From Desulfurococcaceae archaeon (lineage in GTDB: Archaea; Thermoproteota; Thermoprotei_A; Sulfolobales; Desulfurococcaceae), in NCBI GenBank assembly GCA_038845865.1, contig JAWBQJ010000003.1:1-64000 (forward strand): a DNA stretch of 64,000 nucleotides, read 5' to 3'. This document shows, in pieces, positions 44,967 through 47,489 of the stretch; the first letter of the stretch is position 1; every line of letters begins with the position of its first letter. Under the pieces are notes generated by a model, which saw only the letters and a program-made list of their open reading frames with translations, was not told where the DNA came from and made no database searches. The translations under genes were made by a program, and so were the position numbers.

Positions 44967-45596
44967 CTAGGAGCAGCGTGTACTAGTTCCCATTCGACCA
45001 ATAGCTTTCTTAACCGCTTCTCTAGCCGAGTAGTCTACTCCGACATTCACGTGTACACGTGCCTTTATGTAGTCCAATTGGTTGAGTATAAACTTGTTTA
45101 AAACGGCTAGAACCCCTCTAATACTGACTTTGAGAGGTAGCGATCCGCTGTTAAGGAGTAGCATTGCGGTATTGAATAGTGTACTATAAGCGTGTACCAG
45201 ATTGTTCAGGAGATCGTTAGGAATACTCTTCGGGGTGAAGTAGCCGATGTGGTACTCCCTTTCAACGCCATCCTCGTAGTACAAGCTTTCCCGCTCCATT
45301 ATCTTAGAGGCCTTAATGAGTGCGTAAAGGGGATTTTCATGAACAACTGAAACTACGCGAATACCCGGATACTCCGCATTCATGCTCTCATAAAGCTCAT
45401 AGTGGTCCTCTTTACTTAACCCATTAGATAACACTATGAGCGCGCCTGGTAGCACTCTATAAGAGGCGCATCCACGCGCTTTTTCATACCTCTTCACGTA
45501 GCCGCTCAACGGGGTGCTTCCTGTACACCTGTGCCGTTTTGCCATTTCATTACGTCTGGTTGACGGCGCGGTTATTATTAACGTAAACCTGCTCAT
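44967..45596 (-). CDS. Hypothetical protein
   Basis: A 209-residue protein with an N terminus rich in Arg and Cys (RHRCTGSTPLSGYVKRYEKARGC) and an alpha/beta core (PGALIVLSNGLSKEDHYELYESM). The early TAPSTRR part loosely recalls Imp4/Brix-type starts, but the rest does not fit, so I give no function. It is divergent from glmS. Confidence 0.6.
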   Translation of the reverse strand: MSRFTLIITAPSTRRNEMAKRHRCTGSTPLSGYVKRYEKARGCASYRVLPGALIVLSNGLSKEDHYELYESMNAEYPGIRVVSVVHENPLYALIKASKIMERESLYYEDGVEREYHIGYFTPKSIPNDLLNNLVHAYSTLFNTAMLLLNSGSLPLKVSIRGVLAVLNKFILNQLDYIKARVHVNVGVDYSAREAVKKAIGRMGTSTRCS

Positions 45597-45668
45597 CGCT
45601 GATTCCTCGCAAAAATTTATACTGGTTAAAGGACCATATAAACATCTAGCCTAGCGGGTGATGTTGCG

Positions 45669-47489
45669 ATGGGCGGTATTTTCGGCGCGGTGTGCCGGGA
45701 TACAGTACCGCGAGGGGCAATTTACGAGGGTCTTCGCAGGCTTATATACCGAGGCTACGATGGCGTTGGATTAGCCATACTGCGAGGAGAGACGCTGGAG
45801 GTGCGTAAGGCGCCAGGTCACCTTAGCACGGTATCGAAGCAACTTGACCTTATAAACGTGGATTCCCCCGTAGCTGTTGGTCATACAAGGTATGCAAGCC
45901 GCGGATGGCCGGTTTACGAGAACACCCATCCCTTTACGGATTGTAGTGGCAGGATAGCAGTTGTAGGAGACGGAATAATAGAGAACTACGAGGAAGTCAA
46001 AGCAGTACTTGAAAAGAAGGAGCATTCATTTAGGTCAAGAACGGATACCGAAGTAGCCGTTCACCTACTCGAAGACTACTTAAAGCAGGGGCACGACGTC
46101 ATTAGCTCTTTAATTAAAGCCGCTTCAAACCTTACAGGCAACTATTCGCTAGTATTCTTATTAGCGCCGGAGAAGCGGCTGTACCTGGTTCAGCACGGTC
46201 AACCCCTCGTCCTCGGGTTCAGCCACGATGGCAGCTGCATTTACGTATCGAGCGACATACCCTCCCTGTATGGATATGCCGAGCTTGCTTACATAGTCGA
46301 AGACAACACTGTGGGCGTGGTATCACTAAGCTTAGTGGAGTTCTACGACATTGCAACCCAGTCGAGGATGGGTCTGGAGCGCCTTCAGTCTAAGCGGGTT
46401 AAGTACCCTATTGAGCGGGTAGATAAAGGAGGTTACCCGCACTTCATGATAAAGGAAATATACGAGGTACCGGAAGCCCTTCTAGGGGCGACTATCGCGA
46501 TCATGGAAAAATACCTTAGATTGGCATCAATGATACTTCAAGGAGCCCGCAAGGTCTTCGTGATCGGGACTGGTACGAGCTTTCACGCTGCACTGACCTC
46601 TACCTACTACTTCAGCGAGCTCTCAGGGCTGAGTGTGATTCCCGTATCGGCTGCCGAATTCCCATACTCGATCCTCGAGAGTGTGGAGACGGGGACGGTG
46701 GTCATCGCGATAAGCCAGAGTGGAGAGACCAGCGACGTGATAGCGAGCGTTAAGTTAGCAAAACAGAGGGGGTCGGTGATCGTGGGAATAACCAACAATG
46801 TGGGATCAAGACTGGCTTTAGAATCAAACGTTTACCTGCCCATCGGCGCAGGGCCCGAATTAGCCGTTCCTGCAACCAAGACCTTCACATCGACGCTGGC
46901 AACCTTGTTGATACTAGCATCCTACACTGGAGTGTTTACAGGTAAGCGGAGTGTGCAGGAGCACAAGGAGCTTCTCGAAGACATTAAGCACTATAGTAAG
47001 AAGTTACGAGACTACATACCGGTGCTGGAAGAGCAGGTCTTAAAGGCTGCAAACGAAATAGGCGACTCCGATAGTGTTTACGTAGCCAGTAGTGGTATAA
47101 CGTACCCCATAGCCATAGAGGGCGCTCTTAAGCTTAAAGAGGCCGCACTAGTTCACGCTGAGGGCTTTCAACTCGGCGAATTGAGACACGGACCGTTATC
47201 GATAGTCGGACCTAACTTCCCCGTAATAGTCGTTGAACCCCACGAAGAGCAGGCGCAACCGCTGTTCTTGAAGGTTTTAGGAGAACTGGAAACCAAGAGA
47301 GCAAGAATTGTTTCAATAGAGTCGAGGCTACAGACCAAGTACCGGACTTTAGAATTACCCAGCACGACGAGATATCTCTATCCCATATCAGCTGCAACTG
47401 CCTTACAGCTCATAGCATACTATGTGGGGGTTACTAGAAATTCCCCCATAGACACGCCTCCGGGACTGGCGAAGACTATAACCACGTAG
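45669..47489 (+). CDS. glmS: Glucosamine-6-phosphate synthase homologue with degenerate glutaminase
   Basis: A 606-residue protein with the full GlmS architecture, an N-terminal Ntn glutaminase plus two SIS domains. The SIS part is intact: GTGTSFHAAL, SQSGETSDVI, ATKTFTSTLATL, GELRHGP and the C-terminal Lys in GLAKTITT. The glutaminase has lost its nucleophile: the start is MGGIFG, where Cys2 should be. The oxyanion Asn is replaced too (VGDGIIEN instead of HNGIIEN). The GGGTGAT ribosome site 5 nt before the ATG supports this start. It probably uses free ammonia or another nitrogen donor, or runs as a deaminase/isomerase. Confidence 0.9.
   Translation: MGGIFGAVCRDTVPRGAIYEGLRRLIYRGYDGVGLAILRGETLEVRKAPGHLSTVSKQLDLINVDSPVAVGHTRYASRGWPVYENTHPFTDCSGRIAVVGDGIIENYEEVKAVLEKKEHSFRSRTDTEVAVHLLEDYLKQGHDVISSLIKAASNLTGNYSLVFLLAPEKRLYLVQHGQPLVLGFSHDGSCIYVSSDIPSLYGYAELAYIVEDNTVGVVSLSLVEFYDIATQSRMGLERLQSKRVKYPIERVDKGGYPHFMIKEIYEVPEALLGATIAIMEKYLRLASMILQGARKVFVIGTGTSFHAALTSTYYFSELSGLSVIPVSAAEFPYSILESVETGTVVIAISQSGETSDVIASVKLAKQRGSVIVGITNNVGSRLALESNVYLPIGAGPELAVPATKTFTSTLATLLILASYTGVFTGKRSVQEHKELLEDIKHYSKKLRDYIPVLEEQVLKAANEIGDSDSVYVASSGITYPIAIEGALKLKEAALVHAEGFQLGELRHGPLSIVGPNFPVIVVEPHEEQAQPLFLKVLGELETKRARIVSIESRLQTKYRTLELPSTTRYLYPISAATALQLIAYYVGVTRNSPIDTPPGLAKTITT

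Follow-up and report, generated by a model that had tools for sequence, protein, structure and literature searches.

Results

A GlmS-type gene in the window and its start

The stretch of DNA analyzed here, 64,000 nucleotides long and referred to as the window, carries on its plus strand at 45669 to 47489 (stop codon included) an open reading frame for a protein of 606 amino acids that we call GlmS2, a paralog of GlmS. The call was made from the reading frame, the TIGR01135 profile, and the SIS and GATase_6 domains of Pfam, which mark the product as a full-length GlmS homolog. Against TIGR01135, a GlmS equivalog profile that is blind to the nucleophile residue, the protein scored 474.7 bits and passed the cut-off of 418, and its SIS half (46536 to 47486, plus strand) matched PF01380 in two stretches with 128.9 bits. 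An earlier note on this DNA had placed the feature at 45669 to 46100; its start is that of the gene, but the range covers only the first 144 codons.

The protein begins with Met-Gly-Gly (MGGIFGAVC). The ATG at 45669 is the sole in-frame start, the frame being closed upstream by a TAA at 45639 to 45641 with no intervening ATG, GTG, or TTG, and a possible ribosome-binding site (GGTGAT, 45657 to 45662, plus strand), read in the sequence, lies 6 bases 5′ of it. In the orthologs of loci L005 and L006, the start codon immediately follows a stop codon, which fixes residue 2 there as glycine. An upstream start giving a Cys2 N terminus, which the earlier note had left as a possibility, is ruled out by the in-frame stop and by these two orthologs.

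The gene sits amid housekeeping genes, with trpS 158 bp downstream, and relatives share a stable block of trpS, an orotidine-phosphate-decarboxylase-like gene, a prenyltransferase gene, and a glutamate dehydrogenase gene. Glutamate dehydrogenase lies 4.3 to 5.9 kb from GlmS2 in eight genomes; given this stable spacing within a conserved block, we regard its proximity as ordinary synteny, and the earlier proposal that free ammonia is used gains nothing from a glutamate dehydrogenase gene 5 kb away. On the opposite strand beside glmS2, across the genus, lies a gene for a 209-aa protein (44970 to 45596, minus strand, in the window) with no match in Pfam or NCBIfam.

Residues of the two halves

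The window protein was aligned to E. coli GlmS (4amv), which is numbered without the Met. The site of the Ntn nucleophile Cys1 is occupied by Gly2 (45672 to 45674, plus strand, as are all codons given here), and the oxyanion residue Asn98 is replaced by the Asp of Asp101-Gly102 (45969 to 45974), a pair in which Gly99 is kept. Arg73 of the glutamine site is retained in Arg74-Tyr75 (45888 to 45893), where Tyr takes the place of the channel gate Trp74; Asp123 is retained as Asp126 (46044 to 46046), and Ala400 has become Pro401 (46869 to 46871). Further swaps are His77 to Arg78 and His97 to Gly100. Of the SIS half, all catalytic and phosphate-binding residues compared are retained, namely Ser303, Ser347, Gln348, Ser349, Thr352, Lys485, Glu488, His504, and Lys603. 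Its catalytic Glu488 and His504 and its Schiff-base Lys603 correspond to Glu491 (47139 to 47141), His507 (47187 to 47189), and Lys602 (47472 to 47474), and these three, together with Lys485, were also kept 49/49. The alignment bears out what had first been read from the letters, namely a Gly nucleophile site, an oxyanion Asn changed to Asp, and preserved SIS residues. From its sequence, the sugar half of the window protein looks catalytically intact, and the view that the protein would be unable to hydrolyze glutamine by the known mechanism is well supported.

Canonical GlmS in the same genomes

The window genome (1.45 Mb, 99.5% complete) encodes a second, canonical GlmS (C1:454942-456735) that carries the motifs MCGIIG and HNG and is 37% identical to the window protein; this copy rules out the window gene as the genome's only GlmS. 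It scored 683.7 bits against TIGR01135 (cut-off 418), and since both proteins exceed the cut-off, automatic annotation would name both of them GlmS. Of the 49 genomes with GlmS2 and a completeness of 90% or more, 47 also contain a canonical GlmS. In two drafts that are 97 to 99% complete (G052 and G080), we found GlmS2 and a GlmD-like gene and no canonical GlmS.

An ancient clade with a fixed signature

The order was searched with 147 genomes and the phylum with 299, and many orthologs turned up. Gly1, Asp98, and Pro400 occur in all 60 aligned GlmS2 rows, a few of which are copies or near-copies of others, and position 74 is Tyr in 54 of them, Phe in five, and Ser in one. The relatives, in which the earlier note had proposed to look for the same change, thus all have Gly1 and Asp98, and these 60/60 rows rule out sequencing error, chance, or a local pseudogene. 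The 100 other GlmS chosen for comparison, from Thermoproteota, Lokiarchaeota, one haloarchaeon, and many bacterial phyla, have Asn98 and Trp74 without exception (100/100 for each), Ala400 in 98, and at position 1 Cys in 95, Ser in one, and start-of-alignment gaps in four. An otherwise canonical-looking GlmS of an Acidobacteria bacterium (L237) has Ser for Cys1 (MSGIIG), a residue that might serve as the nucleophile or else reflect an error.

In a maximum-likelihood tree, all 55 GlmS2 rows included fell on one side of a single branch (SH-aLRT 100), so that a single loss, predating the divergence of several families, is enough; taxon-labelled contigs from another genome collection place the group in Thermoproteota. 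Judged by the tree and the alignment, GlmS2 is an ancient, strongly supported Thermoproteota clade of GlmS paralogs in which the change is fixed. The scan of that contig collection returned mostly canonical GlmS and put names to few relatives, and in a plasmid collection only distant GlmS were found, all below 60% identity, with the five listed at 35 to 36%. In the open-access literature covered, no paper on a Cys-less archaeal GlmS paralog was found, which does not prove absence.

The glutamine pocket, the channel, and a structure model

Conservation in GlmS2 differs between the two halves: mean column entropy is 1.90 bits in the glutaminase half versus 1.41 bits in the SIS half, with 18 versus 80 invariant columns. 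The invariant glutaminase columns include 1, 73, 98, 99, and 123, which are the core of the glutamine site. Given the invariance of Arg73, Gly99, and Asp123, the GlmS2 pocket looks altered or repurposed rather than decayed. The columns that are fixed differently in GlmS2 and in other GlmS are 1, 74, 98, 328, 398, 400, 408, 588, and the C-terminal Glu608. Positions 398 to 400 presumably border the ammonia channel of the GlmS structure.

An AlphaFold model of GlmS2 (16 sequences) reached a mean pLDDT of 88.2 and a pTM of 0.62, a low value that leaves the domain arrangement in the model unsure. The model matched GlmS and GFAT across both domains, with 3ooj as the best structural match. In E. coli GlmS, the ammonia channel is closed by Trp74 and the C-tail (PMC7948480).

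Linkage to nagA

Among the 147 genomes of the order, nagA, the gene for GlcNAc-6-P deacetylase, is present in 50 and GlmS2 in 60; 41 have both genes, 19 GlmS2 alone, nine nagA alone, and 78 neither (Fisher p 2.6e-13, with phylogeny ignored). In 19 of the 41 two-gene genomes, no more than 1 kb separates nagA from GlmS2, with about 0.1 expected by chance position. These 19 close pairs come from six families, and their orientation is divergent, convergent, or either of the two tandem orders. Two of the neighbors were tested and exceeded the cut-off of the equivalog profile TIGR00221 for NagA. By the listed coordinates in the genomes of the order, no canonical GlmS lies within 1 kb of nagA. Outside the order, all six genomes of family f32 have a same-strand nagA directly upstream of GlmS2 at a distance of no more than 13 bases, and PTS enzyme I is encoded close to GlmS2 in each of them (6/6, one confirmed by Pfam). 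A divergent nagA adjoins GlmS2 in a Sulfolobaceae MAG from another collection, and a BadF-type kinase gene is next to GlmS2 at L245 and L248. At the loci of families f19 and f28, nagA does not adjoin GlmS2 in the stretches read.

Classical NagB (PF01182, Glucosamine_iso) was found in 0 of the 147 genomes of the order, while nine control genomes do match the profile, and the window protein has no PF01182 match. In one genome (G050), the place of GlmS2 next to nagA is taken by a SIS-only GlmD-like gene, and SIS-only GlmD-like genes also lie within the nagA clusters of G118 and G145. The link to nagA that serves as a mark of SIS-type deaminases is seen in the GlmS2 clade but not in the window genome, where nagA, a PF01869 kinase, and a PIG-L deacetylase are all missing.

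Two further observations concern the surroundings of nagA. In several relatives of this archaeon and in all six f32 genomes, it has PTS genes next to it (L144, L145, L146, and L246 to L251), identified from Pfam matches or by inspection as EIIA, EIIC, HPr, and enzyme I; amino sugars may thus be taken up by a PTS in Thermoproteota. A 247-aa SIS_2 protein of the PRK02947 family recurs beside it in many loci, for example at L144:5652-6392 and L247:2429-3169.

Discussion

A probable deaminase

Synthases and SIS-type deaminases share ring opening, a Schiff base at Lys603, and proton transfer by Glu488, and at the level of sequence the catalytic residues alone do not discriminate between synthesis and deamination. 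With no ammonia drawn from glutamine and NagA as a neighbor, the likeliest reaction is that from GlcN-6-P to Fru-6-P and ammonia. We therefore lean, with some but limited confidence, toward the view that GlmS2, an ancient GlmS paralog with the signature of a dead glutaminase, acts mainly as a hexosamine-6-phosphate deaminase, a reading in which we infer both direction and substrate. GlmS2 would convert GlcN-6-P and H2O to Fru-6-P and NH3 by running these steps of the GlmS sugar chemistry in reverse, and it would take the place of NagB downstream of NagA in amino-sugar breakdown. The points in its favor are the second, canonical GlmS, the fixed one-clade signature, the nagA linkage, the absence of NagB, and the swap for a GlmD-like gene in G050; against it stand the window genome, with GlmS2 among housekeeping genes and with neither nagA nor the kinase and PIG-L deacetylase, the other members of the 19 of 60 GlmS2 genomes that have no nagA, the lack of a phylogenetic correction in the co-occurrence test, and the two near-complete drafts (G052 and G080) in which no canonical GlmS was found. 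The nagA linkage and the lack of NagB thus speak for the deaminase-like role raised in the earlier note, whereas the window genome itself does not. Deaminases are known among SIS proteins that have no glutaminase domain: one archaeal enzyme of this kind acts on GlcN-6-P, and genetic evidence points to AgaS as another (PMC3668189).

As for the glutaminase half, the altered pocket (Gly1 and Asp98, with Arg73 and Asp123 retained) may bind a ligand without hydrolyzing it or let ammonia out, rather than being a vestige, and the changed channel gate (Tyr74 and Pro400) may share in that role, both being weaker suggestions than the reaction itself. A bolder version, which we offer tentatively as possible but not probable, is that of an amidotransferase turned round, a clade-conserved deaminase annotated as GlmS whose glutaminase chamber now either lets ammonia out or gates breakdown by sensing an amino acid.

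Alternative readings

An ammonia-dependent GlcN-6-P synthase, in which the dead glutaminase half admits free ammonia and synthesis proceeds when ammonia is plentiful, seems less likely but is a live rival, and some members of GlmS2 may work in this way. The deaminase reaction is reversible in principle, as with NagB, the sugar site is intact, the window genome lacks nagA, and no canonical GlmS was found in the drafts G052 and G080. Nevertheless, the canonical GlmS of 47 of the 49 near-complete GlmS2 genomes leaves no need for a second synthase, the nagA linkage indicates breakdown, and the proximity of glutamate dehydrogenase is conserved synteny.

We consider it quite improbable that GlmS2 is an amino-acid sensor or pseudoenzyme whose pocket binds glutamine or glutamate uncut and regulates either the sugar half or the canonical GlmS. 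The residues that hold the amino acid in GlmS (Arg73, Gly99, and Asp123) are invariant in 60/60 rows while the rest of the domain drifts, and the closest solved fold is a C1A mutant with glutamate bound (3ooj); however, these pocket residues may be structural, and the greater conservation of the SIS half argues for catalysis. Just as doubtful is the idea that GlmS2 isomerizes hexose 6-phosphates or acts on a different amino-sugar phosphate, for example GalN-6-P. Although GFAT isomerizes Fru-6-P without glutamine (PMC7948480) and in E. coli the SIS-domain protein AgaS has been proposed to deaminate GalN-6-P (PMC3668189), a pure isomerase leaves the nagA link unexplained and the two tested neighbors score as NagA above the TIGR00221 cut-off, an argument against GalN-6-P that is weakened by the mutual substitutability of NagA and AgaA (PMC3668189).

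If GlmS2 is indeed a deaminase, the two "GlmS" genes of many Thermoproteota genomes would work in opposite directions, the second of them misannotated as a synthase, since family profiles ignore the catalytic Cys. In archaea with nagA and without NagB, GlmS2 would then account for the deaminase otherwise missing from amino-sugar use, and it would be a natural, fixed counterpart of E. coli GlmS C1A for studying ammonia channels and amidotransferase reversal.

Comparison with known systems

GlmS2 shares with GlmS/GFAT (TIGR01135) the full-length two-domain architecture, both folds, and all SIS catalytic residues, but differs by Cys1 to Gly, Asn98 to Asp, Trp74 to Tyr, Phe, or Ser, and Ala400 to Pro, and forms a separate, nagA-linked clade. 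The E. coli GlmS C1A mutant (3ooj), the top structural match of the model, likewise has a small residue for Cys1; that change is man-made, whereas the one in GlmS2 is natural and fixed and is joined by Asn98 to Asp. With GlmD of Thermococcus, the archaeal SIS-type GlcN-6-P deaminase (NF041128), GlmS2 has in common a GlmS-derived SIS chemistry and the proposed reaction, and GlmD-like genes occupy its place beside nagA in some genomes; GlmD, however, has no glutaminase domain, and the window protein, which has one, reaches 82 bits against the NF041128 cut-off of 580. NagB-II (SO3506; NF046059) is also a SIS-type deaminase, and bacterial operons, for instance in X. campestris, place its gene next to nagA (PMC13055268), but it is SIS-only, and the window protein scores 124.6 bits against its cut-off of 430. 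Finally, AgaS of the E. coli aga cluster is a GlmS-type SIS enzyme paired, as GlmS2 is in part of its clade, with an amino-sugar-6-phosphate deacetylase and a PTS (PMC3668189), but it lacks the GlmS N-terminal domain and its sugar is galactosamine.
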